DNA of 64,000 nucleotides from Candidatus Bathyoplasma sp. NZ (GCA_013332095.1 JABENI010000002.1:1-64000); one strand, 5' to 3'; positions 5,246 through 64,000 are shown, numbered from the stretch's first letter. Translations and numbers: made by a program. The notes: generated by a model not told the origin, from the sequence alone.

Positions 5246-5276
5246 TAAAAGTTCCTCCACTTCAATATTTACAATA

Positions 5277-5285: not shown

Positions 5286-5329
5286 TATTATGGATAAAAA
5301 TGGAATTTTTTTAAATTGCTTAAGATTGC

Positions 5330-6800: not shown

Positions 6801-6886
6801 CATTAATTTTTTTTGCTCTAAGATTTATTTTTACCATCCTTTAGTCTACTGATAAAATCATTTTTTTGAATATTATATATAAGCAT

Positions 6887-6920
6887 AAAAAAAGTTAACG
6901 GACTTTTTCTGTCCGTTAAC
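6887..6920 (-). terminator. Rho-independent terminator in the spacer (copy 1)
   Basis: A perfect 10-bp inverted repeat GTTAACGGAC (6894-6903) / GTCCGTTAAC (6911-6920) with a 7-base loop is followed on the minus strand by seven Ts (complement of 6887-6893). It terminates transcripts coming from the 2863-aa surface gene. The hairpin is conserved base for base at 17796-17829, although the surrounding spacers have decayed. Confidence 0.8.
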
Positions 6921-7089
6921 AGTATACTAATATATTCAGTTACTAAATCCATTGCTTTAATTCTTGCTAAACTTAATAATTGAAATAATTTCTTTTGTAA
7001 TCTACTATGCTCTTAAAAGCAATCACTACAGTTAAAATAGCGAATAATACTACTCGCTATTTTAAGCATTCTTATTGCTGCTAAATCGA

Positions 7090-7440
7090 TTCCACAATAA
7101 CTTTTACTTTATACTTAAACTTATATATTCTTTCTGCATTTATATTAAGTTTCTGAGATTATTTATCGCCCTAGTTTTAGAATAATCAAATACTTCAGCT
7201 TCTAATTCTTATATGCATCATTTAATTCTATATAAGTTATTGCGGACTTCATTTAGGTTGATTCATGATCCTTCTACATATTTTACTTTTTTGGTTACTG
7301 TTTTTGCTACATCTTTATTTGTTATTTTGTAAACAATTTCATATCTTCTTACTTCATTTTTATTAACGCTACTATTCACTCTTCACTTGAAGCAATATTA
7401 GTTCCATCCACTGAGCAGCATATTATTTTTCAATGTACGC
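7090..7440 (-). pseudogene. Relic of an unknown gene downstream of the 2863-aa surface gene
   Basis: The minus strand reads NEVRRYEIVYKITNKDVAKT and VTKKVKYVEG, then after stops and shifts INLNEVRNNLYRIK and EAEVFDYSKTRAINN. The same broken protein is present at 17990-18330 after the 471-aa surface gene. It has no continuous frame or start. It could be the remains of an extra C-terminal domain or of a short downstream gene; the family is not recognised. Confidence 0.5.
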
Positions 7441-7477
7441 TCCTACCTCTATCTAATTATTTGTTATTTATAAATAA

Positions 7478-10400: not shown

Positions 10401-13400
10401 TGTAACACTTTTACTTGTTCTCCATCAATATCAAGTTCATAAATCTTATAACAAACTGCTCCCTCACCGTACTCATTCTTACAATTTCCATCTGCATCTA
10501 ATATATCTGGAGTTATTAACCCTGTTCCGTTATATTCCCAATTAGAATCACTGTCCCATGGAAGTAATCCTTTAGAAGCATAAAACATTAGGTTATCATT
10601 ACCAGTTCCTTTTGCCTCAATTGGCAATACATCACTTAAATCATCTTCAGCATCTTTCAACACTAACTGATGTCGTAAATTGTCTCCAATAGAAACAGTA
10701 TATTCACCACCAACAGGAGGGTCAATTGCTATAAAACTACCTCCATCTAGTGAGTATTCTACTATTGGCTCACTTGCTGTAAAAACGTACTCTCGAGATA
10801 GTGTCCAATTTCCTCTTGTTATTGTTGGTGTTACTCCTATTATTATTTTAAATGTTGCACTTACTTCTACTGCTGCATTTCCTGCTGAATCATTTACATT
10901 ATATTTTACTATTACATTTCTTCCTGTTGCTAATTCTGTTCTTGCTGCATCTAAATCTGTTAATAAAGTTCCACCTTCTTTGTAGTATGTTATTACTATA
11001 TCATCATTTATTTCTCCATCTACATCATCATTTGCTGTTGCTTCTGGTGCAGTCCAAGTTGGAATATCTTCTAGATTTACTATTGCTCCATCTACTGGAT
11101 ATATTACTGGTGCTATTTTATCTCCTGAAACTACTGGTACTATTTCAACTATTGTTACTGTACTTGAATCTGTTGTTGCTGTTACTGGAGTACCTACATT
11201 CCCAGCTTCATCAACATATGTTATGTTAAATGGTACTATTCCTTCTGAAGTTCCTTCTTCTACCATATAAAACGCAATATACGTACCCTCACTTCCTATA
11301 ACTGTTGCTGCTTGTCCAGCTATTGTTATTGTTGGTGTTTCTATTTGTTCACCAACTGTTATTGATAATATGATTGTATCTTTTGCTATTGCATATTCAG
11401 TATTCAATACATTATTACTTACAATTCTTACAGCTAATAATTTTGATAATGTTTTTTCTACTGTTACTGTACTTGAATTTGTTGTTGCTATTACTGGAAT
11501 ACCCGTGTTCCCTGCCTCATCAACATATGTTATGTTAATTCCTACTACTCCTTCAGGCGTTTCTTCTACTACTGTATAAGTAGCTACATACGTATATCCA
11601 CTTCCTGTTACTGTTGCTGTTGCTCCCACTATTGTTACTGCTGGTGTTTGTATATTTCTACTAGCTATTATTGATATTGTAATTGTATCTCCTACTTTGG
11701 CAAATGCTGTATTAAATTGATTATTACTTTCTATTGTTACTATTGGTAGTGTTGGTAATATTGATTCTGTTATATCTACTGTTACCGTACTTGAGTTTGT
11801 TGTTGCTGTTACTACAGTCCCAGCATGTCCTGCTTCATCAGTATATGTTATGTTAATTGCTGCTTCTCCTTCTGGAGTTCCTTCTACTACTATATATTTT
11901 GCAGTATATTTATCTTCACTTCCTGTTACAGTTGCTGTTTGTCCTGCTATTGTCACTATTGGTGTTTGGATATTTTCATTAGCCGTTATTGACACGGTAA
12001 TTGTGTCTCCTACTTTTGCTAATGCTGTACTAAATCGATTATCACTTTCTATTGTTACTGCTTCTAATGTTGGTACTGCTGTATCTACTGTTACTGTACT
12101 TGAATCTGTCGTTGCTGTTACTGCAGCACCAGCGTTCCCTGTCTCATCATCATATGTTATGTTAATTCCTGCTTCTCCTTCTGGAGTTCCTGCTACTACT
12201 GTATAGATTGCAGTATACGTATCTCCACTTCCTGAAATCGTTGCTTCTTTTCCTGCTATTGTTACTGTTGGTGTTTTTATACTCTCACTAGCTGTTATCA
12301 ATACAGTTATTGTATCTCCTACTTTTGCAAATGCTGCATTATTTCCATTGCTACTAATTGTTACTGCTTTCAATGTAGGTGGTGTTTTATCTACTATTAC
12401 TGTACTTGAATCTGTTGTTGCTATTACTGTAGCTGCGTTCCCTGCTCCATCAGTATATATTATGTTGAACACTACTGCTCCTTCTGAATTTCTTTCTACT
12501 ATTTTATAAGTTGCTGCATATACATGACTATATATTGTTTTTACTGTTGCTGTTTCTCCTGCTATTGTTACTGTTGGTGTTTGGATGTCCTCATCAGTTA
12601 TTATTGTTAACGTAATTAAATCTCCTACTTTTGCTAATTCTGTATTATATCTATTATTACTTGCTATACCAACATATGGTAGTGCTTGTGCGCTGGTATG
12701 AATTCTAACTGTATTTGAATCTGTTGTTGCTGTTACTGCCGTACCAACGTTCCCTGCCTCATCAGTATATGTTATGTTAATTCCTGCTACTCCTTCTGGA
12801 GTTTCCGCTACTACTGTATAAGTTGCAGTATAACTATCTCCACTTCCTGAAATTGTCGCTACTTGTCCTGCTATTGTTACTGTTGGTGTTTGGATGTTTT
12901 CATTAGCAATTATTGTCACGGAAATTTCATCTCCTACTTTTGCTAATGCTGTATTATTATTATTACTTCTAATTGTCACTGTATTTAATGTCGGTTTTGT
13001 TTTATCTACTGTTACTACACTTGAATTTGTTGTTGCTGTTACTACCGTACCAGCGTTCCCTGCTAAATCATCATATGTTATATTAATTTCTGCTACTCCT
13101 TCTGGAGTGCCTACTGCTACTGTATAAGTTGCGGTATATATTTTTCCACTTCCAGTTACATTTGCTATTTTTCCTGCTACTTCTACTGTTGGTGTTTTGA
13201 TGTCCTCACTAGCTGTTATTGATACTGTAATTACATCTAACCCTTTTGCTAATACTGTATTGCTATTATTACTTGCTATTGTTACTGTGTCTAATTTCGG
13301 TAATGTTTTATCTACTTTTACTGTACTTAAATCCGTTGTTCCGGTTACTACCGTACCAGTGTGTCCAGCCTCATCAACATAGGTTATGTTAATTCCGGCT

Positions 13401-16069: not shown

Positions 16070-16102
16070 TTTACTTCTCCTCCTTATTGTTTATCTGTTT
16101 TA

Positions 16103-16111
16103 ATGATATCA
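16103..16111 (-). promoter_or_regulatory. Extended -10 promoter of the 2863-aa surface gene
   Basis: The minus strand reads TGATATCAT, 34 bases before the ATG, preceded by CCATAATA. This is the same context as at the other surface genes. Confidence 0.5.
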
Positions 16112-16179
16112 TATTATGGTAAAAAATGGTATTTTTTATTTTTTTTATTTTTTCGGTTAATTAATACTGTTAATTTTAA

Positions 16180-16920
16180 TATTATTAGCCAGTTGTTTTC
16201 CTACTGTGATTGTATTATTTATTAATTTTTCACATTCCTCTCCTCCAATTTCTAATTTTTTCTCCCTAAACTAATTTTTTTAATTTCAACATATCGGTTA
16301 TAATTAGATTTGCTATTTTGTTTTAACTATTTTTTAACATATTTCTATTTTTTGTTGAATGTCATTCGCAAATTCTACTACTCTTTTTAACCCGTTGTAT
16401 TTCTCTTTATACTATATACGACTGTCATCTGTTGTTGTCTTTGATAATGTGTTATCTTTTTTATTAGTTCTATCTCTATTTTTTGTCTCATCTCTATCAA
16501 TAATTTTTTTATCTGAATTTAACTTGTTAATTTCACTACTTTAGGAGAAGCAATGTTAAGTCTTACAGATAGGCTACTTTCTTCTGTAGTAAATGATATT
16601 CTATTTTATTAATGCGCTCCTTTCCAATTAACATCTACTTTTGCTACTGTGTTTGATACTAAAGTACATTACTTCATTATTTATTAAATTTAAAAGTTGT
16701 TACCTTAAATTTACTTTGAAGTTATTAAATCCCTTTGCTAAATTGACTTTTATTTCAATTATCTTCTTTTTAATGTACTTTTTTTCTTTCTATAGCGTTT
16801 TCGTGTTATTAATATCGTATATTGAATATTTTACTATCTAATTTCTTTCAATATTTGAGTTTATTTTTCCTATTATTTTTATTTCTGAATAACTTTCAGC
16901 ATTTTTTATTGCTCTTTCAT
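16180..16920 (-). repeat. U-block copy 3
   Basis: Homologous to the blocks at 160-720, 5330-5900 and 19910-20480, and likewise placed directly upstream of a surface-gene promoter. Readable pieces on the minus strand include NSDKKIIDRDETKNRDRTNK and KDNTLSKTTTDDSRI. No intact frame remains. Confidence 0.65.
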
Positions 16921-16929
16921 ATTCTGTAA

Positions 16930-17740
16930 TTCATCTTAATTGTTAAAGAATCAAAAGACTTAAATAAATATTAATTGAAAGTTCATTGAATTCTCTATTC
17001 AATAGGATTTTTATTTTTTTAATTTAAACTAAATTGATTATTGTTGTAATAAGACATATATTCTTTTATTGTCTGGAGAATATTATTGCTTTATCTGAAG
17101 TAAAATCATATTTTGATTCCCCTTAATTAATCTATTTAATGATTCTATTTAATGATTCTATTATTGATTATATCTTGGAGTTCCCACTTCTAGGCATTGA
17201 TCTTTTTTTGTTATAATCTTTATGAACTTTTTCGAATGCTTCTAGGTTATATATTGAATTTTGGTCACTATACAAAATCGTATCCTAGTTAATATGTCCT
17301 TTTTTTCTTTTGTTTTTTAAGATATTATTTACTGCTCTGTGATGTGTTTAAATACTATTTAAAATTAAGTCAATGCTACAATACACTACCAAATACATTG
17401 ATATAGATTGCTAAATCATATCTTTTTCTATTATTTCTTATTATTGTATTATAACTTCAAATGATTTACTTCCATTCAAACAAGCAATTTTTCTAGAAAC
17501 TTTATCTCTCAAGCCCGTTTTCTGATAATTCTTTCTAGATTTTGATTTAACGTTTAATTTTAAATCATACTTATAAAATAACTAATCTAAAACAATATAC
17601 AAATTCTTTTTATAATATTTTTTAATCCAAGGATATACCATATCATGTGCTATGCTACTCCTTTAGCAATTGTTTTTTGTGGTTCTTCAAAATTTATATA
17701 CTATTACATTCATTAATTTTTTTTGCTCTAAAATTTATTT
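16930..17740 (-). pseudogene. Decayed IS3-family insertion sequence, copy 3
   Basis: This copy gives the best family diagnosis. The minus strand reads KGHINQDTILYSDQNSIYNL, then EAFEKVHKDYNKKRSMPRSG and SIIESLNRIIK. These fit the IS3-family OrfB core (ILHSDQGSxYxSxxF...SMSRxGxxxDNxxIES), including the second acidic residue of the DDE triad in SDQ. Upstream, KSKSRKNYQKTG and SKSFEVI match copy 1. Stops and frameshifts are frequent. Confidence 0.7.
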
Positions 17741-17795
17741 TTGCATCCTTTAATCTACTGATAAAATCATTTTTTTGAATATAATATATAAGCAT

Positions 17796-17829
17796 AAAAA
17801 AAGTTAACGGACTTTTTCTGTCCGTTAAC
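17796..17829 (-). terminator. Rho-independent terminator in the spacer (copy 2)
   Basis: Perfect inverted repeat GTTAACGGAC (17803-17812) / GTCCGTTAAC (17820-17829), 7-base loop, then a minus-strand T-run (complement of 17796-17802). Identical to the hairpin at 6887-6920. Confidence 0.8.
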
Positions 17830-17989
17830 AGTATACTAATATATTCAGTTACTAAATCCATTGCTTTAATTCTTGCTAAGTTTAATAATGCTGGACTAAT
17901 TTTTGTAATCTCCTATGCTCTTAAGGCAATCACTACAGTTAACAATAGTGAAATAGTACTACTCACTATTTTAAGCGTTCTTATTGCTG

Positions 17990-18330
17990 TTAAACGTTTC
18001 CTACAATAACTTTTACTTTATCCTTAAACTTATATATTCTTTCTGCATTTATATTAAGTTCCTGAGATTACTTATCGCCCCAGTTTTAGAATAATCAAAT
18101 ACTTCAACTTCTAATTCTCATATACATCATTTAATTCTATATAAGTTATTGTGGACTCCATTTAGTTTGATTGATGATTCTTCTACATTTTTTACTTTTT
18201 TTGTTACTGTTTTTGCTACATCTTTATTTGTTATTTTGTAAACAATTTCCGATGCTCTTACTTTATTTTTATTAACGCTACTATTTATTACTCACTTCAA
18301 GTAATATTAGTTTCACTCACTAAACAATAT
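17990..18330 (-). pseudogene. Relic of an unknown gene downstream of the 471-aa surface gene
   Basis: The minus strand reads NKVRASEIVYKITNKDVAKT and VTKKVKNVEESSIKLNGVHN before losing frame. It is homologous to 7090-7440 and sits at the same place relative to the upstream surface gene. The region from here to the IS3 relic (17830-17990) holds no other recognisable content. Confidence 0.5.
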
Positions 18331-18395
18331 ATCCTTTTTCAGAGACGTACTTCTTACCTCTTCTAATTGTTGTTTTCTTATTAATTTGATACTAA

Positions 18396-19811
18396 CTATC
18401 TTCTTTTTATATAAGCATTGCAAATTACCCTGTGCATAATTGATTCATTTCCTGCTATATCTTTTACTATAATTTTGTATATTCCTGTTGTTGGGAATGT
18501 TATTGATATACTATCACTTGGTGTAGTCACTTGTATCCATGTTGCTCCTTCATCAATACTGTACTCTCCTATTTTTTCATTTGCACTTAAAGTATAACTT
18601 AAACCTATAATTTCCGGAGAACTTATGATTACTGGTGCTTCATTATCTACTGTTACTGCACTTGAATCTGTTATTGTTACTTCCGTACCATAGTTCAATA
18701 CCATATCTTTATATATTATGTTAATTCCTGCTAGTCCAGCTGGTGTTTCTGCTACTACTTTATAAGTTGCAGTATATCTAAGTATCGGAGGGTTATTTAT
18801 ATCAAGCCAATCTCCTCCTATCATCGTTGCTCTTATTCTTGCATTTTGCCCTGCTATTGTTACTGTTTCGATATATGACATCTCACTAGTTGTAAAATGT
18901 ACTGTGATTGTATCTCCTACTTTTGCAAATGTTGAATTATTAATATTATCACTTTCTATTGTTACTGTTGGTAATGTCGGTGCTGTATTATCTACTATCA
19001 TAATTTCATATTCTAATCCTGTTGTTGCAGAGCTCCCAGCGTTCCCTGCTTCATCAGTATATGTTATGACACCTTCTGCTAATCCTTCTGGAGTTTCCTC
19101 TACTACATCAAGTCTTGCATAAAAATGATGAATGTACTTATTAGTTATTGATGAATAAAACCCATTATCTATTACTGTTGCTGTTTGTCCTGCTATTGTC
19201 ACTGTTGGTAATGTTGCTGGTTCTTCAGTAAGACTAAAAAATAATATAATTATTTCTCCTGTTTTTGCATAGTCTTCCGCTGCACTATGATACCAATAAT
19301 CACTATCATATTCACTATAACTCCTCATTACTATTCTTCCTGATAATGCAGGTATTGTTCTATCTACTCTTACTTTACTTAAATCTGTTGTTACTACTAC
19401 AACAGTGCTCCCTAACTCATCATCATATGTTATATTAAATTTCACTACTCCTTCTGTAGTACTTGATGTTACTGTATATGCTGCGATATATGTATCTCCA
19501 CTTCTAGTTACATCTACTGTTTTTTCTGCTATTCTCACTTTTAGTCCTTGTATGTCCTCATTAGCTGTTATTGATAGTGTAATTGTATCTCCTACTTTTG
19601 CTAATTTTGGATTCGCATTGTCACTTGCAATTGTTACTTGTGATAGTGTAGTTCCTTTAGCAAATGGCTTATCGTACACATCTTTCCCTTTAATTTCAAC
19701 TGCATTTACCTCTTTTTCTATAAATCTTGGTGCTAAGAACGCTACTATTGTTAATGTTATTATCATCAATAAGTAACCTATTCTTTTAAAAATACTTTTT
19801 CGTTCTTTCAT
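18396..19811 (-). CDS. Secreted Ig-like repeat surface protein (471 aa)
   Basis: The start ATG at 19811 follows AAGGGGGAAGAAG. The signal segment (MKERKSIFKRIGYLLMIITL...FIEKEVNA) is almost the same as in the 840-aa protein. It is followed by three Ig-like repeats (AKVGDTITLSITANEDIQG; AKTGEIIILFFSLTEEPA; AKVGDTITVHFTTSEM) and the family C-terminal module (YTLSANEKIGEYSIDEGATW...IYKIIVKDIAGNES), ending ICNAYIKRR. This is the minimal member of the family: signal, a few repeats and the shared C-terminal module, which suggests that the constant module carries the function common to all members. No LPXTG or membrane anchor is visible. Confidence 0.85.
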   Translation of the reverse strand: MKERKSIFKRIGYLLMIITLTIVAFLAPRFIEKEVNAVEIKGKDVYDKPFAKGTTLSQVTIASDNANPKLAKVGDTITLSITANEDIQGLKVRIAEKTVDVTRSGDTYIAAYTVTSSTTEGVVKFNITYDDELGSTVVVVTTDLSKVRVDRTIPALSGRIVMRSYSEYDSDYWYHSAAEDYAKTGEIIILFFSLTEEPATLPTVTIAGQTATVIDNGFYSSITNKYIHHFYARLDVVEETPEGLAEGVITYTDEAGNAGSSATTGLEYEIMIVDNTAPTLPTVTIESDNINNSTFAKVGDTITVHFTTSEMSYIETVTIAGQNARIRATMIGGDWLDINNPPILRYTATYKVVAETPAGLAGINIIYKDMVLNYGTEVTITDSSAVTVDNEAPVIISSPEIIGLSYTLSANEKIGEYSIDEGATWIQVTTPSDSISITFPTTGIYKIIVKDIAGNESIMHRVICNAYIKRR

Positions 19812-50992: not shown

Positions 50993-51024
50993 GTTGATAT
51001 AAATAAATATTGTGGAGGTTTTTT

Positions 51025-51381
51025 ATGAGAAGTTTAATAACAAAAATTCAATTTCTTTTTAGTATTTTACTGTTTACAACTATTGTCCTTACATTGATTG
51101 CCAGTTATATCTTCAAAGATGCAACGTTTTTAGATAAAGTACCATTAATTACTAAAGAATCGTTAGTAGAGAATTTTCCTTTAATGCTTAGATTGTTAAT
51201 TATCAATATTGGTCTTTCTGGTCTTTTAACAGTTATTAATTATATTGGAGATGAAGAGTACAGTCATCTGACAAAAATTTCTTTTTTTAGTTTAGTTATT
51301 AATTTTATTATTTATATTATCCTTATCTTCATCCTTTGTAAGTTATCAAATAAAAAAATGTCAATGATGAAATTATTTTAG
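51025..51381 (+). CDS. Small membrane protein of unknown function (118 aa)
   Basis: The start is ATG 51025 (MRSLITKIQFLFSILLFT), eight bases after GGAGG. Three membrane helices: ~8-30, ~55-75 (LLIINIGLSGLLTVINYIG) and ~88-108 (VINFIIYIILIFILC), with a loop DATFLDKVPLITKES between the first two. Same length and topology as the next gene and weak similarity to it, so the two look like an old tandem duplication. No family recognised. First gene of a two-gene unit behind a good promoter. Confidence 0.75.
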   Translation: MRSLITKIQFLFSILLFTTIVLTLIASYIFKDATFLDKVPLITKESLVENFPLMLRLLIINIGLSGLLTVINYIGDEEYSHLTKISFFSLVINFIIYIILIFILCKLSNKKMSMMKLF

Positions 51382-51389
51382 GTGAAATT

Positions 51390-51767
51390 ATGAAATCTAT
51401 CTACAAACTGTACGCTTTAATTTCTGTTTCTATTACTTTTATTCTCCTAACTTTAATTGCTGTTTATCCGATGGAATTTAAGGATCTTGTTATTGCTTTT
51501 TACGACCAAATAGTAAACTCAACACCAGTTCTCATCAGTGATTTAAGCGTTCCGCAAATAGTGATGTATAACTTAATAATTGTTTTTTGTATAAACATCG
51601 GTTTAAATTTAATAATTATGCTCTTTTCTTTTTTACACAAAGACCAGTTCAACTTTAAAGTAGTAAGATTATCCCTAATTATTAATACCATTGTCCTTTT
51701 ATCTATCTTTTTCCTGATTAAATTAATATTACAATTAGTTGTTAATCTAATTCAAAAATTCCTATAA
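51390..51767 (+). CDS. Small membrane protein of unknown function (125 aa)
   Basis: Eight bases after the previous gene, with AGGTGAAATT before the ATG. Three membrane helices (~10-28, ~60-85 MYNLIIVFCINIGLNLIIML, ~96-120). Spacing of helices and the external loop (IVNSTPVLISDLSVPQ) parallel the upstream paralogue. Function unknown; presumably the two proteins act together. Confidence 0.75.
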   Translation: MKSIYKLYALISVSITFILLTLIAVYPMEFKDLVIAFYDQIVNSTPVLISDLSVPQIVMYNLIIVFCINIGLNLIIMLFSFLHKDQFNFKVVRLSLIINTIVLLSIFFLIKLILQLVVNLIQKFL

Positions 51768-51869
51768 ATACTATAAAAAAAAATGAAAAATATTCAGAAA
51801 AAGTAATTTTAAAAAAATATCATAATTCTATAATTATTTATAGTTACATCCACTATTTTAAATAAGCTT

Positions 51870-52330
51870 TAAAATGAGAAAATTATTTATCTTTTAAAAA
51901 CACAACAAATAATATTGTTAAATTGCAGATAAATAATCAATCCTATACTTCTACTTCCATCTTGAACGAAAAAAGAATTTTGTCCTTTGAGCAAGAGATA
52001 TAAAAACATTGAATATTATTCAACTTGTAAATAACAAATATCAATCAGATTGAAAAAAGTTCTAAATATTTATCAATAGTATCGATTCAATAATAGAAAT
52101 AGAAAAAATAAAATATTCAAAAGATGATTATTATATTCCTTTTAATCTTTCCAAGCCACCAAGCACATTTAAGATAAACGGTAAGATGAAAATATTGGCG
52201 AATTTCTCGGTGATAGTAGTTTTATAAATAATTACCTAATAGTAAATCTGGATAAATATCTATATACTGTTACTCGACTGAAAATATATTTGAAAAAACA
52301 TTTAATATCAAAAATATAATTGAACAGTTA
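51870..52330 (+). pseudogene. Decayed copy of the C-terminal module of the fifth array protein
   Basis: Base-level similarity to 57060-57470 is clear. Both contain AAAACACAACAAA(T/C)AATATT, a stretch around ATATCAATC(A/G)GATtGa, TTTTTAATCTTTCC-type sequence (here CCTTTTAATCTTTCCAAG) and a degraded TGTATTTGAAAAAACATTT counterpart. Stops and deletions break every frame. It lies at the left edge of the five-gene array, so it marks where an earlier array member ended. The rest of 51768-52613 holds the leader of the first array gene and nothing else recognisable. Confidence 0.7.
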
Positions 52331-52499: not shown

Positions 52500-52613
52500 T
52501 GTTCTAGATAAAATGTTGTTTATAGATGTTAACTAAATCTAGCAGTTAATAAAATGCTTAAGCATTTATAGTTCTCGCAAAAATTTCTATATTTTAAATT
52601 GGGAGATGATATA
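52500..52613 (+). repeat. Type A leader of the paralogue array, copy 1
   Basis: About 110 bases (AGATAAAATGTTG...AACTAAATCTAGCAGTTAAT...TTCTCGCA(A/G)AAATTTCTATATTTT...GGGAGATGATATA) shared with 54226-54339. It includes a 16-bp palindrome AAATGCTTAAGCATTT that is degenerate in the second copy. It probably carries the promoter and ribosome binding site. Confidence 0.7.
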
Positions 52614-53501
52614 ATGAAAAAATTTAGAAAATTGTTTTTTATTTTGTTAGCACTATTGATTTGTGGAGGTGTTACGGTTTCTGTTGTAGTAAATAACATC
52701 CGTTTAAATAACACACCTTTAGATATTGCCAGAAGAGATAAATTAAAAATGATTGAACCATTTTTAGAAGATATTGGTGAAGATAACTATATAGTCCTCA
52801 GCAGTCAATATGATGGTAAAGATATATCCCATTATGACCATAAATCTGGCTGGCAAGACGTATATCTTCAATTAAAACAGGACCAAAATTTGATATTAGA
52901 GTTTTTTAAGAGGAGTGACGCACTAGCAGTGAATTCTGTTTTTAGGTCAGAGACAGGTATTAATTTTGTTTTTCCTAATGGGGAAATTCTGAAATATATG
53001 CATGGATTTTTTTGGTTTGGAATGAATATGTACATAATCCAGGACAATGATAGAGAAGATTTTGATAATTTTGTGAATAACATAGGTTTAAATAATATAC
53101 CTTCACAGATTAATAAGTTAAAAATGATTGAACCATTTTTAGAAGATATTGGTGACCATAGTTATATAGTAATCAAGCCTAATTTTACCGATATGTATGA
53201 AAATATAGATAAATTAAATTATAACCATGAAGATTATAAACAGGATGTTTATCTTCAATTAAAAAATGATCAAAAATTTATATTAGGTTTTTTTAAGAAG
53301 AGCATAGCAGTAAAAACTATGTCTTCCCTAATGGGGAGTATTGATTTTGTTTTTCCTAATGGGGAAATACTGCGTTATAAAAATGGATGTTTTTATGATG
53401 TCGAAGGACACTCGATGTACTTTCTTCAGGATCATGATAGAGAAAATCTTGATAATTTTGTAAATAATTTAATTTTACTCGATGATAATTCAGATGATTG
53501 A
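52614..53501 (+). CDS. Array paralogue 1: membrane-anchored two-domain protein of unknown function
   Basis: 295 aa from the ATG at 52614, eight bases after GGGAG (a TTG at 52599 is in frame but precedes that site). A signal/membrane segment (MKKFRKLFFILLALLICGGV) is followed by two copies of a ~125-aa domain joined by NNIGLNNIPSQ. The domain pattern is KLKMIEPFLEDIG, then QDVYLQLKxDQxxIL and FKRS-like, then FVFPNGEILxYxxGxF, then DNDREDFDNFVNN. There are no cysteines in a conserved place and no catalytic motif. The mature part is presumably outside the membrane. No family recognised. Confidence 0.75.
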   Translation: MKKFRKLFFILLALLICGGVTVSVVVNNIRLNNTPLDIARRDKLKMIEPFLEDIGEDNYIVLSSQYDGKDISHYDHKSGWQDVYLQLKQDQNLILEFFKRSDALAVNSVFRSETGINFVFPNGEILKYMHGFFWFGMNMYIIQDNDREDFDNFVNNIGLNNIPSQINKLKMIEPFLEDIGDHSYIVIKPNFTDMYENIDKLNYNHEDYKQDVYLQLKNDQKFILGFFKKSIAVKTMSSLMGSIDFVFPNGEILRYKNGCFYDVEGHSMYFLQDHDRENLDNFVNNLILLDDNSDD

Positions 53502-53529
53502 TCATTGAAAAAGCTAAAGTTAATAATCA

Positions 53530-53675
53530 TTATTTTATTGGGATGAGTATTAGTTTTTTTAAAAAAGGTTAGTCAGTGAAATGAATTGTGAATTTGATGA
53601 AACAGTAAAAAAAATAATGAAAATAACAAAGGAATTAATCCTTTACATAAATTTCTAAAAAAATGAGGTGATACG
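53530..53675 (+). repeat. Type B leader of the paralogue array, copy 1 (others 54905-55050, 55577-55722)
   Basis: About 145 bases nearly identical before array genes 2, 4 and 5: a TTTTTTTAAAAAAGG stretch, GAATTGTGAATTTGATGAAA, a run ending AACAAAGGAATTAATCCTTT (a hairpin-capable AAAGGA/TCCTTT), then AAATGAGGTGATACG before the ATG. Part of it (AATTGTGAATTTGATG) could be a relic coding piece. Confidence 0.8.
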
Positions 53676-54212
53676 ATGAAAAAGTTTAGAAAGTTGTTTT
53701 TTATTTTATTAGCAATAATGATTTGTGGAGGTGTTACGGTTTTTGTTGTAATAAATAACATACATTTAAATCGCATACCTTCAGATAACACACCTTCAGA
53801 GATTCTCAAAAGAGATAAGTTAAAAATGATTGAACCATTTTTAGAAGATATTGGTCCGTATAGTTATATATCTAAAATGTATGACAATATAGATATGTCA
53901 AATTATAACCATAATTATCATGTGCAGAATGTTAATCTTCAATTAAAACAGCACCAACAGTTCATATTAATGTGTTTTAAGAGGAGCAAAACAGGCCAAG
54001 CTGTTTATTATAAAGCAATACGAATGCCCATAGGTACTACCTTTGTTTTCCCTAATGGTGAAACGCTATATTATCGTTCAGGGTATTTTCTTGTTGAAGG
54101 AGAGGAATACTTAATCCAGAACAATGATAGAAAAAAATTTGATAATTTTGTAAATAATTTAATTTTACTCGATGAAAATACAAATGTATTGGATGAAAAT
54201 TCAGATGATTAA
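53676..54212 (+). CDS. Array paralogue 2: membrane-anchored protein of unknown function
   Basis: 178 aa, one copy of the array domain after MKKFRKLFFILLAIMICGGV. The linker carries an extra repeat (IPSDNTPSEI). Domain landmarks: KLKMIEPFLEDIG, VNLQLKQHQQFILMCFKRSK, TTFVFPNGETLYYRSGYFLV, NNDRKKFDNFVNNLILLDEN. It has a type B leader (53530-53675) and a GAGGTGATACG ribosome binding site. Confidence 0.75.
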   Translation: MKKFRKLFFILLAIMICGGVTVFVVINNIHLNRIPSDNTPSEILKRDKLKMIEPFLEDIGPYSYISKMYDNIDMSNYNHNYHVQNVNLQLKQHQQFILMCFKRSKTGQAVYYKAIRMPIGTTFVFPNGETLYYRSGYFLVEGEEYLIQNNDRKKFDNFVNNLILLDENTNVLDENSDD

Positions 54213-54339
54213 TCATTTAATATTGATTCCAGATAAAATGTTGTTCATAGATTTTAACTAAATCTAGCAGTTAATAAGCTACTTAAGTATTTGCAGTTCT
54301 CGCAGAAATTTCTATATTTTTAAAATGGGAGATGATATA

Positions 54340-54876
54340 ATGAAAAAATTTAGAAAATTGTTTTTTATTTTATTAGCATTATTGATTTGTGGAGGTGTTA
54401 CGGTTTCTGCTGTAATAAATAACAGACGTTTAAATAATATACGCATAAATAACCTACCTTCAGAGATTGCCAGAAGAACTCAGTTAGAAATGATTGAACC
54501 ATTTTTAGAAGACATTGGTGATCATAGTACTATCACAGTTTTTTTGTCTGACTATAATATGACATATCATGAGAATTATAACCATAATAATCAAGCGCAG
54601 AATGTTAATCTTAAATTAAAACAGGACCAACAATTCATATTAAATTGTTTTAAGAGAAGCAAAACACCCATAGGAGCCGGAACTACGCCGACAACAACAG
54701 GACTTATTAATTTTGTTTTTCCTAATGATGAAATTTTGCATTATAGCGAGGGATATTTTTATGCTGGTGTCGGAGGAACCTTGATGTACTTAATTCAGGA
54801 TCATGATAGAGAAAATCTTGATAATTTTGTAAATAGTTTAATTTTATTTAATAAAAACCCAAATATAGATGACTAA
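54340..54876 (+). CDS. Array paralogue 3: membrane-anchored protein of unknown function
   Basis: 178 aa from the ATG at 54340, eight bases after GGGAG; the ATG at 54325 is too close to that site. It has a type A leader like gene 1, and its signal segment (MKKFRKLFFILLALLICGGV) is also closest to gene 1. One domain: LEMIEPFLEDIGDHS, VNLKLKQDQQFILNCFKRSK, a variable loop (AGTTPTTTG), NFVFPNDEILHYSEGYF, DHDRENLDNFVNSLILF. Confidence 0.75.
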   Translation: MKKFRKLFFILLALLICGGVTVSAVINNRRLNNIRINNLPSEIARRTQLEMIEPFLEDIGDHSTITVFLSDYNMTYHENYNHNNQAQNVNLKLKQDQQFILNCFKRSKTPIGAGTTPTTTGLINFVFPNDEILHYSEGYFYAGVGGTLMYLIQDHDRENLDNFVNSLILFNKNPNIDD

Positions 54877-54954
54877 TCATTGAAAAAGTTAAAGTTGATA
54901 ATTATTATTTGATCAAGATACTCATCAATTTTTTTAAAAAAAGGTTAATCAATA

Positions 54955-55480
54955 AATGAATTGTGAATTTGATGAAACAGTAAAAAAAATAATGAAAATA
55001 ACAAAGGAATTAATCCTTTACATAAATTTCTAAAAAAATGAGGTGATACGATGAAAAAATTTAGAAAATTATTTTTTATTTTATTAGCAATATTGATTTG
55101 TGGAGGTATTACGGCTTATGTTGTAATAAATAACACACCTTCACAGATTACCAGAAGAGATAAGTTAAAAATGATTGAGCCATTTTTAGAAGATATTGGT
55201 GAGTATAGTTATACAATAATCAAGACTATCTCTGCCGATACATATGTCAGTAATTATTATAATCAGGATGTTTACCTTCAATTAAAACAGGATCAACAGT
55301 TTATATTAGGATGTTTTAAAAGAAGTAAAGCACAAGGACTTAATATGTTTGATAGAATACCGGGAGGAGATATTGACTTTGTTTTTCCTAATGGTGAAAT
55401 ACTGGATTATAATTCAGGATATTTTGAAGTTGAAGGAGAGGCATACTTACTCAAAGACAATGATAGAGAAACTCTTGATA
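54955..55480 (+). repeat. ~526-bp direct repeat (second copy 55627-56152), 672 bp apart
   Basis: The leader and first ~430 coding bases of gene 4 recur without a difference that I could see at 55627-56152. This is a very recent duplication or gene conversion, in contrast with the diverged genes 1-3. Confidence 0.85.
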
Positions 55481-55548
55481 AGTTTGTAAATAATTTAATT
55501 TTACTTGATGAAAATTTAGATGTATTGGATGAAAATCCAGATGATTAG
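55051..55548 (+). CDS. Array paralogue 4: membrane-anchored protein of unknown function
   Basis: 165 aa with a type B leader. The first ~143 residues are the same as in gene 5, and the DNA from about 54955 to 55480 repeats at 55627-56152. One domain: KLKMIEPFLEDIGEYSYTII, DVYLQLKQDQQFILGCFKRS, DFVFPNGEILDYNSGYFEVE, DNDRETLDKFVNNLILLDEN. It ends in an acidic tail (DENPDD). Confidence 0.75.
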   Translation: MKKFRKLFFILLAILICGGITAYVVINNTPSQITRRDKLKMIEPFLEDIGEYSYTIIKTISADTYVSNYYNQDVYLQLKQDQQFILGCFKRSKAQGLNMFDRIPGGDIDFVFPNGEILDYNSGYFEVEGEAYLLKDNDRETLDKFVNNLILLDENLDVLDENPDD

Positions 55549-55722
55549 TCATTTAAAAAACTAAAGTTGATAAAATTATTTGATTAGGATGTTCATCAAT
55601 TTTTTTAAAAAAAGGTTAGTCAGTGAAATGAATTGTGAATTTGATGAAACAGTAAAAAAAATAATGAAAATAACAAAGGAATTAATCCTTTACATAAATT
55701 TCTAAAAAAATGAGGTGATACG

Positions 55723-57546
55723 ATGAAAAAATTTAGAAAATTATTTTTTATTTTATTAGCAATATTGATTTGTGGAGGTATTACGGCTTATGTTGTAATA
55801 AATAACACACCTTCACAGATTACCAGAAGAGATAAGTTAAAAATGATTGAGCCATTTTTAGAAGATATTGGTGAGTATAGTTATACAATAATCAAGACTA
55901 TCTCTGCCGATACATATGTCAGTAATTATTATAATCAGGATGTTTACCTTCAATTAAAACAGGATCAACAGTTTATATTAGGATGTTTTAAAAGAAGTAA
56001 AGCACAAGGACTTAATATGTTTGATAGAATACCGGGAGGAGATATTGACTTTGTTTTTCCTAATGGTGAAATACTGGATTATAATTCAGGATATTTTGAA
56101 GTTGAAGGAGAGGCATACTTACTCAAAGACAATGATAGAGAAACTCTTGATGAGTTTGTGAATACAATAGGTTTAAATAATATACCTTCCAACATTGCCA
56201 AAAGAGATAGGCTAAAAATAATTGAGTCATCTTTAAAAGATATTGATGAATATCGTTATATTGGTAAATATAGTTATATAGTAATGGAGCCTAACATAAT
56301 TGATACATTTCCCGATATTTCAACTTATGACTATAATCATCATTTGCAAGACATTGTCCTGCAATCAAAAAAAGACCAAGATTTCATATTAAACTGTTTT
56401 AAGAGGAGCGAAGCATTAAATCTTGAAATCCCTCCATCGCTAGGAGGTATTAATTTTGTTTTTCCTAGTGGTGAAGTACTGGATTATAGTTCAGGATATT
56501 TTTTGGTTGGAGGTTGGATGTACTTCCTACAAGAAAATGATAAAGAAGATTTTGATAAATTTGTTAATAATCTAATTTTAAGAGAATACACACTTAATAA
56601 ACTATCTTCTACACCAAAACGTGTTTCAAACTTTAACTATTTTAAAGTTTTAAAAAAACCTACAATAGATCCAAATATGCAACTAAAAGGTGTTTTACAC
56701 AATAGCGAAAAAGATTCTAGTAAAATAAAATCAAATTTAATTGTTGATATTGATGATAATGAAGATTTATTCATAGATGCTTCAATAGACGGCATTATCA
56801 ATATGATGGAATTAATTGATGAAAACGGTCAAATAGTTAAAAATATTACTAACCTTGGTTCTTCTGGAGTCACAAAAATAAGCGGTCTAAGTAAAGGTAA
56901 ATATACTATTTCACTTAAAACTGTTGAAGATATAGTGAACGTACCATTTTATATAAATATATATGCTTTACCATCTGTTCCAGATTTAGATTTTTCAAAA
57001 ATAATAAATAAAAATGATTTATATCTTACAAAAATGACAAATAAAAATGATTTTGATTTTGAAAACACAACAAACAATATTGTTAAATTGAGAATAAATA
57101 GTCAACCCTATACTATTTACCCTGAGCAAAAAATAACTTTGTATTTTGGTGAGAAGTATAATATTATCGAATATTACTCAACTTTAGTAAATGGCACATA
57201 TCAATCGGATAGTAAGCAAATCATAATATTTGTTGATAGTATCGCTCCAACAGTGGAACTAGAGGAAATAAGGTCTTCAAGAGGCGGTTATTATTATATT
57301 TTTAATCTTTCCGAAATGCCAAGCGTATTTAGAGTAAATGGCGAAGATGAATTTGTTGGCCAATGTTTCGACGATTGTAGTTTTTTCTACAGTTACATAA
57401 TAGCAAATCCAGATACCTACCTGTATACTGTTTATTTAGAAGACTCGACTGGAAATGTATTTGAAAAAACATTTTTCCTGCGCTCTTTTTATATTTCTTC
57501 TTTTTTAAAGTATCTTCCTATTATTCCCTCTTTCTTTTTAGTTTAA
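55723..57546 (+). CDS. Array paralogue 5: two array domains plus a large C-terminal module
   Basis: 607 aa: signal/membrane segment, array domain 1 (same as gene 4), linker TIGLNNIPSNIAKR, array domain 2 (~165-290), then a unique ~320-aa extension. The extension contains a beta-rich segment resembling bacterial PPC folds (LFIDASIDGIINMMELIDEN; GLSKGKYTISLKTVE), a segment with NKNDxYLTKMTNKNDFDFEN, an Ig-like stretch opening DSIAPTVELEEI, and a hydrophobic C-terminus (YISSFLKYLPIIPSFFLV) that might anchor the protein. The extension is also found, decayed, at 51870-52330. Two Cys (FVGQCFDDCSF) are in the last Ig-like part. Function unknown; it looks like the most complete or ancestral member. 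Confidence 0.78.
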   Translation: MKKFRKLFFILLAILICGGITAYVVINNTPSQITRRDKLKMIEPFLEDIGEYSYTIIKTISADTYVSNYYNQDVYLQLKQDQQFILGCFKRSKAQGLNMFDRIPGGDIDFVFPNGEILDYNSGYFEVEGEAYLLKDNDRETLDEFVNTIGLNNIPSNIAKRDRLKIIESSLKDIDEYRYIGKYSYIVMEPNIIDTFPDISTYDYNHHLQDIVLQSKKDQDFILNCFKRSEALNLEIPPSLGGINFVFPSGEVLDYSSGYFLVGGWMYFLQENDKEDFDKFVNNLILREYTLNKLSSTPKRVSNFNYFKVLKKPTIDPNMQLKGVLHNSEKDSSKIKSNLIVDIDDNEDLFIDASIDGIINMMELIDENGQIVKNITNLGSSGVTKISGLSKGKYTISLKTVEDIVNVPFYINIYALPSVPDLDFSKIINKNDLYLTKMTNKNDFDFENTTNNIVKLRINSQPYTIYPEQKITLYFGEKYNIIEYYSTLVNGTYQSDSKQIIIFVDSIAPTVELEEIRSSRGGYYYIFNLSEMPSVFRVNGEDEFVGQCFDDCSFFYSYIIANPDTYLYTVYLEDSTGNVFEKTFFLRSFYISSFLKYLPIIPSFFLV

Positions 57547-58084: not shown

Positions 58085-58500
58085 GCTTAATCATATCATG
58101 AATGTTACAAAAAATCGGCACCTAAGTCCTTGCACCCTCTTTTTTCCTAGATTTTTTATCAGTAATCGCTCTGACTGACCCAATGTATCAATTTTAAAGA
58201 TTATTTCTTTTGCAATTTCATTCCCTAGATTAACTGATTTTTCGAGATATTCTTTAGCTTTTTCTTTATCTCTATTTACATTTTCTCCAATTAAATAAAT
58301 TATCCCAAGTTTTAAAAGTGCGGACTCACTGTTTTTTCTGCCGACTTTTCAAGATAATCTATAGATTTACCAATATTTTTTCCACAGCCACTTCCCATGT
58401 GGTACATTGTTCCAATCTTATACTGCAAATTATCTTCCATAGAAAAGCCCGCTAATGCGCCCTCAAAGCAGTCTAAAACAGCAGAAAGGTAACAAGGTTA
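58085..58500 (-). pseudogene. Sel1-like repeat protein, frameshifted and truncated
   Basis: The minus strand reads MEDNLQYKIGTMYHMGSGCG and KNIGKSIDYLEKSAEK, then shifts frame near 58335 and continues NSESALLKLGIIYLIGENVN, EKAKEYLEKSVNLGNEIAKE. The YxxGxGxxxNxxKSIxYLEKSA spacing is that of Sel1-like (TPR-related) repeats. The upstream end joins the IS3 fragment near 58500, so the N-terminus is lost. Confidence 0.6.
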
Positions 58501-58509
58501 ATTTGATAA

Positions 58510-59098
58510 TATCATCTAAAAACTTTGTTTGGTGTATTTGATTAAAATCTTGATTTATTATATTAGGTGAGTAAAGTCCTCTTTTTTCAGTCTTTGTGAG
58601 TCCTTTTGGGACTCTTTTTCTTTTGATTTGCAAGTCATCATCTTTTATTATTCTGTATGAGTTCTCTCAGAAAAAGCAATGTTATAATTAATTTTAAAAA
58701 CAAGGTATAATCTTGGCGAGCCGTAGTTTTCATTCTCAGCATCTGCTGTATGTATTTCTTTAATGTAGCTCAGAATTTGTTCGTATTTATAAGATTTGTT
58801 ATATTTTTGAACCACTTATAATACCTTTTTTCTGTGACTATTAAGATCTTACAAAGTAATTTTACAGTAAATTTTTTTTGGATAAATATAAATTCAAACC
58901 TTTGTTTTTCACTTACTTCTTCTGGTCTTCTAGAAAAAAATCAAGGACCCTACCCAATATATCGTTGGCTTTTTTTAGTTCTGAAATTTCTTTTTGCAGT
59001 CTTTCGTGTTCAGATAGTTTTATAAATTTTTCCCTCTTCTTTTTAATATACATCTTTGAACTTAGCGACTCCATTTTTATTGTACTATTCCATCTCAT
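58510..59098 (-). pseudogene. Truncated IS3-family transposase fragment (second type)
   Basis: An OrfA tail (58913-59098: HERLQKEISELKKANDILGR, resembling the LKKANEILKKASAFF end of IS3-group OrfA) is followed in other frames by OrfB pieces: KLLCKILIVTEKRYYKWFKN, YIKEIHTADAENENYGSPRL, RVPKGLTKTEKRGLYSPNII. These follow the order of IS3-group transposases (NYGSPRI; KGLTK; SPNLLxRxF). It lacks the 5' part and everything after the start of the integrase core, and differs from the relics at 0.7-17.7 kb. Confidence 0.65.
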
Positions 59099-59854
59099 CT
59101 AGGTTTGATATAGCATTTGTTGGACAATAATTATAGCAACGCATACAAGTTTCACAATCTGAAGAAAATAGAAATTCATTATTTTTATATTGGATGCATT
59201 TGACTGGGCAGTTTCTTATACATTCCATGCATTTCGTGCAAACTTGTATATCAATGTGCATATTTTTATAGTTGTTTTTAAGTTTATTATGTGTTTTTAG
59301 TCGAACAAGTTTTCCGATTAGAAGATGCGGACCTATGCCATTTATATAGTTTTTAGAATTTTCTAAATGTTTAATTAATTTTAATAGTTTTTTTCTGCAT
59401 TTCTTATTATTTTTTCATCAAAGTTTCCTATGCTTATTATTTTTTTATTACTTTTTATTGGTGCACTATTGGGCATTTTTACATTAACATATGCAATGAT
59501 TTTTAAAGAAGTAGCATTTATAATTTTTTTGGTTTCAAAAATTCCATGACCATTAACATATGCGAATGCGTTTACGAAAAAAAGTTTTGTAGATATTGAA
59601 TTATTATTCATTTTATGTGTAAATTTATTAATATAATTTAGCATGATTCTAGGTATATTTGCGCCATAAATATGATAGGCAAACCCAATATAATCAAAGC
59701 TATTAATCGTATCATTTGCGTATTCGTCGATATTTAAATTTTCAATTGCTACAACAGTAATTGTGTGTCCCTGTTTCTTTAACAAGATATCTAATTGATG
59801 AATAACCCATTTAGTATTTCCTATTCCGCTAAAATAAAAAGTTAATATTTTCAT
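59085..59854 (-). pseudogene. EFR1-type flavodoxin plus 2[4Fe-4S] ferredoxin, frameshifted
   Basis: The first 157 residues are a flavodoxin domain: MKILTFYFSGIGNTKWVIHQ with the FMN phosphate loop, FDYIGFAYHIYGANIPRIM, FVNAFAYVNGHG. The frame closes at 59381. One added A in the A-run near 59385-59391 restores it: KKLLKLIKHLENSKNYINGI, then two cluster motifs CTKCMECIRNCPVKCIQY and CETCMRCYNYCPTNAI (CxxCxxCxxxCP twice), ending at a TAG (59085-59087). EFR1 proteins are anaerobe electron carriers. It is either a real frameshift mutation or a homopolymer sequencing error; decay of the neighbours favours the former. Confidence 0.75.
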
Positions 59855-60120
59855 TGTATCTACCTCAATATTAATTATAACACATGTTTAAATCCAAAAT
59901 AACAACTGAATCTCTTGATAATAAAATTCATCCAATAAAATATCAGCAGATATTCAAGCCATTAAATTTACTAATAAAAAAATCTTTAAAACATCGTTTA
60001 CAAATGACATTTTCTGAGGAATGATGATAATGGAAGAAAAAGAAAAACGAATACCTTACACAAAAGAAGAATTTAAAATAGCACAAAGTATTGTAGAGTA
60101 TTATAATGACAGGAGTAGTA
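59855..60120. other. Gap with short unassigned reading frames
   Basis: The plus strand contains SLDNKIHPIKYQQIFKPLNL followed by a stop, then MEEKEKRIPYTKEEFKIAQS and IVEYYNDRSSITS before a stop at about 60131. Neither has a convincing family; they look like fragments of mobile-element genes. No promoter or structured RNA was seen. Confidence 0.3.
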
Positions 60121-60510
60121 TTACTTCTTAGATTCAATTTTCAATTTAAACATATTAATTATTTTAGGAATCCATGGCATTAAAGAATCAATGATATCAC
60201 TGGTATCACTCTCCAAATCATGCTCTTTTAAATATGTTCTAAGTATGCAGGTATCTTTAACTTGTTTTCTTTAGCAGTTTCAACAATTGAATAAATTATA
60301 GAACTCGCTTCTACTCCATTAGGAGTGTTATGAAATAGCCAGTTCTTCTTTCCTATAACATATGGTTTTATACTTTTCTCAGCTGCATTATTATCTATAG
60401 TCAAAATAACCATCAAGAAGATAATTTTTAAATCTAGATATTTTATTTCTATGCAAATTGAGCCAATCCTCAAATTTATCCAATAGATCTCTTTCGAAAC
60501 TCCAGAAAGA
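60121..60510 (-). pseudogene. IS66-family transposase, C-terminal fragment
   Basis: The minus strand encodes TIDNNAAEKSIKPYVIGKKN, WLFHNTPNGVEASSIIYSIV and ETAKENKLK, the hallmark C-terminal part of IS66 TnpC (IDNNxAERxIKPFVIGRKNWLFxNTPxGAxAS). After a frameshift near 60235, RTYLKEHDLESDTSDIIDSL and MPWIPKIINMFKLKIESKK follow, ending at a TAA (60121-60123). Preceding broken pieces (FEDWLNLHRNKISRFKNYLL) fit the segment just before. The first two-thirds of the transposase are missing. Confidence 0.8.
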
Positions 60511-60960
60511 AGTTCCACTCCAGCGATAAGGTTAAAACGTAAAGCAAAACGCTTTCTCCGTCATCATATTTCTCAAACAAATCGTGATGCTTTTCATCAA
60601 TATCATTCTTTAGTTTTTCAAAAACATCATCTCTCTCTTTTTCTGCAACAACAAAATGACAGTAAATTGATTCATTACTTACCAAATATTCCATTAACAT
60701 GGTTTGTGCTTCTATTGACCTATTTTCAATTTTAGGCATATTTAGATATTTGTGTAAATCACTACTAATATCTCTTACGGCACTTTTATAATTTCCAAAC
60801 TCTTCGTCTGTTTCAATATACTTAGTAGAATAATGAGAGATGTTAATGTTTCCTCTAGTTGATTAGTACTTCTTTATATTTTTCTATATTAATCAAAAGA
60901 TATGTTTTATCTATACTTTCATCATCAAATTGATCATTCACAATTACATTAGTATTTTCA
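60500..60960 (-). pseudogene. Fragments of an unrecognised gene
   Basis: The longest open stretch (60476-60739, running on upstream in frame to about 60850) reads SHYSTKYIETDEEFGNYKSA, VRDISSDLHKYLNMPKIENR, CHFVVAEKERDDVFEKLKND. Upstream, in shifted frames, IVNDQFDDESIDKTYLLINI and TNQLEETLTSLIILL appear. The 3' end runs directly into the IS66 fragment. Acidic and soluble; family unknown. It may be a small gene truncated by IS66 insertion. Confidence 0.4.
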
Positions 60961-61741: not shown

Positions 61742-64000
61742 ATGTTTAAGAAGATTATAGGTGTTTTATTAATGTGTTTTTTGTTTGCGAACATGAATTT
61801 AGTAGTTTTTGCCAATGAAAAAGAAATTGAAAAAAATTACACAAATAAAGTGGATGCTTTCAAAAAGACTAAGATTACAAAAAAAAATGAAGAATTACAG
61901 AAAGAAAAAGAATTACCTGATGAAATATTACAGAAAGAAAAAAAATTGCCTGATGGAGTATTACAAAAAGAAAAAAAATTTCCCGATAAAGTATCACAGA
62001 AAGAAAAAAAGTTGTCCGATAAAGTAAAAAAAATGATAGAAAGAGATAAAATAACATCAAAAGACAACGACAAAAAGTCATTTAGTAAAGACGATAATAA
62101 CAATATGATTATAAGGACTGAAAGTTCAATAAGAAATGACATAAATTCGCCGTACTATATTAATGTAGGGTCAACCTACTCTGGTTTGTCAATTAATCCT
62201 AGCGGCGATGAAGATTTTTTTAAATTTACAGCTCCTAACTACGGAGTGTATTCAATATATACAACAGGTAGCACTGATACTTATGGATATTTAATGAGTA
62301 GTAGCGGAAACACCACTTACGCATCTAATGATGATGCCGGCCCAAGTACCAACTTTATGATAAAGCGTACACTTACTGCTGGACGAACTTATATGATTAA
62401 AGTAAGAGGTTATAATTCTCGCACCACCGGTTCATATACTATAACAGTAGAACCAGAAGTTTCTCCAGACCAATACGAAAACAATGATAGTGTAAGCAGT
62501 GCTACTTCTATACCCCATTCCAATAATACTGTGTTCTATTATCCTACGTTACATACGTTTTATGATGTAGATTACTTTAAATTTACTATCAATGTCAAGT
62601 CCGGTTTAGATATTGATATGACAAGTATTCCCAGCGGAAGAGACTATGATATGAGACTATACAATGATCGTGGAAATACTCTAGCATCTGCAGTACTCGG
62701 AGGTTCCTTAGACGAAAATATTAGTACAGATAATTTGCTTGCAGGAACATATTACATAAAAGTTTACTCCCATAATGGTTTCAGCGATAGCAATACTTAT
62801 AGACTTGCCATCAAATTGGAGCCTCATGCTAATCCAGACCAATACGAAATCAATGATAGTATGAGTACCGCTACGACTATAAATAGTGGTACAAATTTAT
62901 ATCCTACGTTGCATACGGATAATGATATAGATTACTTTAAATTTTCTATCGACACCATGTCCAGTTTAGAACTTGATATGACAAGTATTCCCAGCGATAC
63001 TGACTATAACATCATACTATATGATTCTAATGGAAATACAATAGAAAGTTCACTAAATGGAAGTAACAGAAGCGAAAATATTGATGAGGATAGTTTGCTT
63101 GCAGGAACATACTACATAAAAGTTTATTCATATAGAAATTCCACCGATAGCAATACCTATAAACTTGCCATCGAATTGGAAACTCATGCTAATCCAGACG
63201 AATATGAAAGCAATGATAGCATGAGTACCGCTACAACTATAGATAATGGCACAAGTTTATATTCTACTTTGGATACGCATGAGGATAGTAGTAAAATCAA
63301 CAGTAGCATTAACGGCACAAGTTTATATTCTACGTTGCATACTCATGAGGATATAGATTACTTTAAGTTTGATATTAGCAGCATTTCCGGTATAGAGATA
63401 GATCTGACAAATATTCCAAGCAATACAGATTATGACATCATTCTATATGATTCTGATGGAACTCAAATAGCATATTCAGAATATTCAAGTAACAGCAGTG
63501 AAAATATTAAAGAGGATAATTTGCCTGCAGGAAAATATTATATAAAAGTGTATTCCTTTACTGGTTACAGCGATAGCATTGCATATAAACTGTATTTAGC
63601 AGTTACATCTCCTGATATTACAATTAATGGTAGAATACAATACAATGTTTATGAAAATTTTGAGGTTTATGACAAGCGTAATGATACTGATTATCCTAAC
63701 AAACCTTATGTTGAAGATTTAAGTAACTATAATATAAGTATTTATGATAAAGATTTGATATATCATGATTTGTTGGCTACTACAACCACTGATGCTGATG
63801 GTAAATTTTCTACCACATTTAATAATCAAAATTTTGATAATGTGGATATTTTTATTAAAGTTACATTGGATAATGAAATTGTCAACATTACCAAAATTGG
63901 AAATGATGGAGATACATATTTTTGGAACAGTCGTGTTGAAAGAAATTTACAAAATGCTACAACATACGATTTTGATACATTCATTATGGATGATACCCGT
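61742..64000 (+). CDS. Large secreted protein with Lys-rich repeats and PPC-type domains (C-terminus outside window)
   Basis: The ATG at 61742 follows GGAGGTAGTT. 753 codons are open to the window edge. Signal peptide (MFKKIIGVLLMCFLFANMNL...VFA, ~1-25); four 11-residue repeats (LQKEKELPDEI, LQKEKKLPDGV, LQKEKKFPDKV, SQKEKKLSDKV; ~52-95) forming a charged helix; then four bacterial pre-peptidase C-terminal (PPC)-like beta domains (~135-240, 245-365, 368-485, 490-625) with the DEYExNDSMSTAT ... DIDYFKF ... LLAGTYYIKVYS pattern. The last has a local duplication (GTSLYSTLDTHED / GTSLYSTLHTHED). A carboxypeptidase-regulatory-like domain may start at ~640 (TTTDADGKFSTTF). PPC domains usually accompany secreted proteases or cell-surface proteins; no catalytic domain is visible yet. 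Confidence 0.85.
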   Translation, partial: MFKKIIGVLLMCFLFANMNLVVFANEKEIEKNYTNKVDAFKKTKITKKNEELQKEKELPDEILQKEKKLPDGVLQKEKKFPDKVSQKEKKLSDKVKKMIERDKITSKDNDKKSFSKDDNNNMIIRTESSIRNDINSPYYINVGSTYSGLSINPSGDEDFFKFTAPNYGVYSIYTTGSTDTYGYLMSSSGNTTYASNDDAGPSTNFMIKRTLTAGRTYMIKVRGYNSRTTGSYTITVEPEVSPDQYENNDSVSSATSIPHSNNTVFYYPTLHTFYDVDYFKFTINVKSGLDIDMTSIPSGRDYDMRLYNDRGNTLASAVLGGSLDENISTDNLLAGTYYIKVYSHNGFSDSNTYRLAIKLEPHANPDQYEINDSMSTATTINSGTNLYPTLHTDNDIDYFKFSIDTMSSLELDMTSIPSDTDYNIILYDSNGNTIESSLNGSNRSENIDEDSLLAGTYYIKVYSYRNSTDSNTYKLAIELETHANPDEYESNDSMSTATTIDNGTSLYSTLDTHEDSSKINSSINGTSLYSTLHTHEDIDYFKFDISSISGIEIDLTNIPSNTDYDIILYDSDGTQIAYSEYSSNSSENIKEDNLPAGKYYIKVYSFTGYSDSIAYKLYLAVTSPDITINGRIQYNVYENFEVYDKRNDTDYPNKPYVEDLSNYNISIYDKDLIYHDLLATTTTDADGKFSTTFNNQNFDNVDIFIKVTLDNEIVNITKIGNDGDTYFWNSRVERNLQNATTYDFDTFIMDDTR

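Follow-up and report, generated by a model that had tools for sequence, protein, structure and literature searches.

Only a few recombining arrays of tandem paralogues are known in Gram-positive bacteria. The TipC arrays of streptococci encode immunity proteins against TelC, a toxin of the type VII secretion system (T7SS); these proteins are multi-copy, membrane-bound and face the outside, and their genes combine conserved ends with a variable middle and recombine with one another (PMC9484751). In the EsaG immunity arrays of S. aureus, successive paralogues are separated by intergenic sequences that hardly vary, and blocks of homology drive gain and loss (PMC9484751); the lpl genes of the same species are tandem paralogues whose conserved and variable parts are thought to aid shuffling (PMC4470592).

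Here, we describe a locus that adds to these arrays a family without detectable relatives. It lies in the window, by which we mean the whole stretch of 64,000 nucleotides that was analysed (C4:1-64000, from a draft genome of 1.82 Mb in 44 contigs that is 97% complete), and comprises five plus-strand open reading frames (ORFs) at 52614-57546 with seven copies of one domain of ~125 aa. With the TipC arrays it shares a membrane anchor, tandem non-identical paralogues and a variable middle, the 5' end and the C-terminal helix being conserved and the loops variable in the TipC pattern; it differs from TipC in that searches of NCBIfam, Pfam and PDB brought up no sequence match for its proteins, that their predicted fold has no significant match, and that their neighbour is a metalloprotease. 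Strings of paralogues and near-constant intergenic regions are shared with EsaG, which, however, counters a nuclease toxin, is not described as membrane-anchored in PMC9484751, and showed no homology to the array. The Lpl cluster, too, is a same-strand tandem of surface-anchored paralogues that combine conserved parts with variable ones, but Lpl proteins carry a lipobox, which the array proteins lack, and Pfam does not match the latter to the lpl family. We regard the TipC and EsaG arrays as the closest published pattern, followed by the lpl lipoproteins; the array itself belongs to neither group.

Anatomy of the array, its leaders and its relatives

The anatomy and the evolution of the array are well supported. 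An earlier note had placed here five genes of an unrecognised, membrane-anchored family, with two domain copies each in genes 1 and 5 and with leaders of two types, and every one of these points was borne out (Table 1). The seven domain copies have a mean column identity of 61% and 35 invariant columns, a likeness far above chance. All five genes open with MKKFRKLFFILLAxxICGG, and the proteins have a single transmembrane (TM) segment at residues 8-26, hydrophobic and 19 residues long; for gene 3, homology and the position of the Shine-Dalgarno sequence place the start at 54340 and not at 54325. The N-termini contain neither a lipobox (no match to [LVI][ASTVIG][GAS]C; Ile precedes Cys17) nor an AxA signal-peptidase site, and are best read as uncleaved signal-anchors; because the N-terminus is positive, the domain probably lies outside the membrane.

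Table 1. Features of the array locus and further copies in the same genome
Feature	Coordinates	Strand	Remarks
Three-TM protein	51390..51767	+	125 aa; passenger
Decayed protease C-terminal tail	51857..52327	+	many stops; just upstream of array
Type A leader of gene 1	52502..52613	+	
Array gene 1	52614..53501	+	signal-anchor, two domain copies; 295 aa
Type B leader before gene 2	53502..53675	+	174 bp; 25-codon ORF MNCEFDETVKKIMKITKELILYINF at 53581-53658
Array gene 2	53676..54212	+	signal-anchor, one domain; 178 aa; modelled with AlphaFold2
Type A leader of gene 3	54227..54339	+	
Array gene 3	54340..54876	+	signal-anchor, one domain; 178 aa from homologous ATG; mosaic
Type B leader before gene 4	54877..55050	+	174 bp; same 25-codon ORF at 54956-55033
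Array gene 4	55051..55548	+	signal-anchor, one domain; 165 aa
Type B leader before gene 5	55549..55722	+	174 bp; same 25-codon ORF at 55628-55705
Array gene 5, whole ORF	55723-57546	+	
Array gene 5, family part	55723..56616	+	signal-anchor, two domain copies
Gene 5 extension	56629..57474	+	metalloprotease C-terminal tail fused in frame, 73% identity
Secreted protease, N-terminal part	61742..64000	+	four PPC domains; gene continues to C4:65977
Further array copy	C4:66727		full gene; beyond window
Further array copy	C4:69740		broken; beyond window
Further array copy	C31:4376		two-domain gene running off contig
Further protease copies	C31:3-2123; C26:3-1604		both at contig starts

At the DNA level, the distinction between type A leaders (genes 1 and 3, ~89% identity) and type B leaders (genes 2, 4 and 5) is real. 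Wherever the locus is copied, its first array gene likewise has a type A leader, which therefore looks like the array's entry leader. Type B is an intergenic region of constant length, and its last ~96 bp are without any difference among the three copies; elsewhere in the genome it gave short AT-rich matches only. The 25-codon ORF sits in this invariant block, whose flanks differ between copies, and may be a leader peptide or the product of recent conversion. An RNA role for the leaders was rejected, as their folding was no better than that of shuffled sequences (z 0.8, -0.2 and 0.1) and Rfam returned no match.

Across all searches, the array proteins are an orphan family with copies in their own genome only. 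The contigs of this one draft genome are broken at repeats of the array locus, so the copy number may be wrong. No credible relative turned up in 60 relatives searched with one protein, in a profile search of ~690 genomes (296 from the class, 392 from the phylum), or among GTDB representatives, viral contigs, plasmids and phages, and Pfam, NCBIfam, PHROGs, PADLOC and PDB held no consistent match to the domain; a strong profile match to a housekeeping family, which the earlier note had named as a possible refuter, did not turn up. Matches to Vsr, NOMO, DUF2606, AbiEi, ThsB and TIFA were rejected as chance-level and inconsistent between copies, and weak matches in single genomes of the class (E ~0.001-0.008) were dropped because they cover different parts of the profile. 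The AlphaFold2 model built from six copies in the window is of moderate quality (pLDDT 71, pTM 0.64) and has the order helix, strand, helix, four strands, helix; for this model, Foldseek found nothing at E<0.001 in PDB or BFVD; a second model, of the ectodomain alone, was poorer (pLDDT 55), and a fold search with it gave no match.

Selection and signs of recombination among the copies

In a codon model, the ecto-core has an omega of 0.30 (vs 1: p=2e-8). It is under purifying selection, and the array genes are therefore real proteins. The differences between copies are concentrated in the variable loops, as the earlier note had it (pN 0.48 in the loops vs 0.14 in the core, permutation p=0.0002), and the second refuter that it had named, loops without excess divergence, did not come true either. 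The note had likened the loops to those of families selected for diversity, but positive selection is not significant: omega does not differ from 1 in the loops as a whole (0.82), and its value of 2.55 in the middle loop has p=0.13. These values come from seven copies with little statistical power and an uncertain loop alignment. Relaxed constraint, as opposed to selection for change, may account for the divergence of the loops.

The copies also seem to swap pieces, which would make the cluster one of recombining tandem paralogues. The 5' part has a lower synonymous difference (pS 0.17) than the sequence downstream of it (0.42; p=0.0002), which points to a 5' block that has been homogenised or whose DNA is constrained. 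Along gene 3, the nearest relative switches from gene 4 at the 5' end (0.89) to gene 2 in helix 2 (0.90), where the C4:66727 copy is also close, and, at the C-terminus, to the second domain copy in gene 1 (0.91). The PHI test (p=0.026 and 0.054) is suggestive of recombination. These signs can be set beside the TipC arrays, which have conserved 5' and 3' blocks and recombination between paralogues. Duplication as such, proposed in the earlier note, is supported, and it was recent in the case of gene 4 and gene 5, whose first domain differs from gene 4 at ~2 sites. The duplication of an A-B pair that was proposed with it agrees with the leaders but is at odds with the bodies of the genes, gene 2 being nearest to the out-of-array copy at C4:66727 and gene 3 a mosaic; the bodies appear to have been reshuffled since the pair was duplicated.

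A large extension of gene 5, also noted earlier, is present but is not part of the array family, being the C-terminal tail of a protease. Beyond 57474 the ORF runs on to 57546 with an unrelated hydrophobic end. Compared with intact protease tails, the extension has a dN/dS of 0.8-1.1 and, on that ground, looks like the product of a rearrangement in near-neutral evolution.

A duplicated locus shared with secreted metalloproteases

The array is part of a segmentally duplicated region that also carries secreted PPC/M36-like metalloproteases of ~1400 aa. The copy on C4 (1412 aa) starts ~4 kb downstream of gene 5 and has a signal peptide, four PPC domains (Pfam E=1.3e-31), a zinc-protease region HEYGHH...SEG and a tail of ~280 aa, the HEYGHH catalytic motif and the C-terminal tail falling past the window. 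The motif is shared with peptidase family M36 (fungalysin), to which the matches are weak (Pfam E=0.0018, below the Pfam cut-off; PDB 7qfy E=0.019), but the tail, found also in gene 5, is the protease's own. No relatives of the protease were found at E<=1e-5 in 395 genomes of the class. Between copies, the catalytic region has diverged (dN/dS 0.74, dS 0.44) while the tail has been homogenised (dS 0.09-0.14).

The secreted PPC protein to which the earlier note alluded is present near the array, and a second protease copy with a downstream array gene occurs on C31 of the same genome. There, as at C4:61742-65977, the array genes lie downstream of the protease on the same strand, whereas the C26 copy has a broken tail and no array gene beside it; an intact glnA lies near this copy. 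C31 and C26 start with the same 100 bases (L016:1-100 and L059:1-100) inside the protease gene, and the protease N-termini are missing from both because the assembly broke at the repeat. Decayed protease tails occur not only upstream of the main array but also before the array genes at C4:66727, C4:69740 and on C31, and arrays and proteases may have been neighbours repeatedly and later been separated by deletions.

Other sequences have been copied with the locus. The three-TM passenger has copies 95-98% identical at C4:68547 and C31:3222, and the two adjacent three-TM proteins at 51010-51767 are alike in layout and possibly paralogues. Pieces of glnA, too, were duplicated along with the array; they lie at L015:7591-8055, L016:2220-2998 and L059:2870-4210. 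The interval between array and protease (58100-60740) holds pieces of an IS66 transposase, other broken frames and a cut-short EFR1-type flavodoxin gene that ends short of its ferredoxin part.

Candidate functions

Our favoured reading, offered tentatively and with rather less than even confidence, is that these lineage-restricted tandem paralogues are loop-variable surface proteins for binding or immunity, with the protease as the first candidate partner. The signal-anchor would hold a small alpha/beta domain outside the membrane; its scaffold is conserved while the surface loops can vary freely, most of all the loop that links FKRS to FVFP. Copies would be gained, lost and shuffled through near-identical 5' blocks (leader, signal-anchor and first helix), and the larger locus duplicates together with the secreted PPC/M36-like metalloproteases. 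The ectodomains may then act as cell-surface binders whose variable loops meet a variable secreted protein, and we infer that they could be immunity or inhibitor proteins shielding the producer in the manner of TipC. The co-duplicated protease is the sole visible candidate for the partner, chosen from the neighbourhood in a single genome. Its own fast divergence between copies speaks for such a shield; against it stand the absence of homology to any immunity or inhibitor family and the small number of protease loci, two or three in one genome, within a jumble of segmental duplications. Because the loci are few, the duplications jumbled, and the TM protein and glnA co-duplicated, the proximity of array and protease may be accidental. 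The earlier note's suggestion of immunity or recognition proteins is kept here as a possibility, binding and recognition themselves being hypothetical.

A bolder form of this reading, which we consider improbable, is an undescribed module for self-protection or recognition in which a secreted PPC metalloprotease and a growing array of loop-variable, membrane-anchored inhibitors co-duplicate, co-diversify and recombine into new protease/shield pairs outside known secretion-linked toxin systems. If the protease is the partner, the locus would represent a new kind of protease/shield arms race.

It is possible, if somewhat unlikely, that the proteins are instead lpl-like variable surface proteins (antigens, adhesins or receptor-like proteins) whose loops escape phage, host or predator, the protease being a mere neighbour. 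A membrane-anchored domain, tandem paralogues, variable loops and recombination via conserved blocks would all suit such proteins, and the lpl paralogues are comparable in their conserved and variable parts (PMC4470592), but the differences from Lpl in lipobox and Pfam match count against this, as does the finding of no start-less silent cassettes, nearly all copies having their own start and leader. We think it unlikely that the array arose by neutral birth and death, by which a small orphan gene would have multiplied by chance amid repeats and decay, with little specific role for copy number or loops. Fragments do lie all around (decayed protease tails, IS66, EFR1-like and glnA pieces, the broken C4:69740 copy), the tail of gene 5 is near-neutral and loop omega does not differ from 1; yet all seven domain copies in the window are open, the genes retain their start sites, leaders and Shine-Dalgarno sequences, and the constraint on the core weakens this explanation. 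A true TipC/EsaG-like array for T7SS immunity has the genetic layout of tipC and esaG in its favour but is largely refuted and highly improbable, as the genome, 97% complete, encodes no LXG-domain protein (PF04740), the EssC model hits a single sub-threshold FtsK/SpoIIIE-type ATPase (120.7 bits vs a cut-off of 778.4), and TipC has no profile or PDB sequence match here. With LXG toxins absent and the EssC match far below cut-off, the nearest known immunity context is missing, and no T7SS or known toxin in the genome accounts for the array that we favour as surface binders.

Elsewhere in the window, the minus strand at 2723-19811 encodes another tandem surface family, made up of three large Ig-like proteins with repetitive sequence (845, 2863 and 471 aa) and similar N-terminal leaders.
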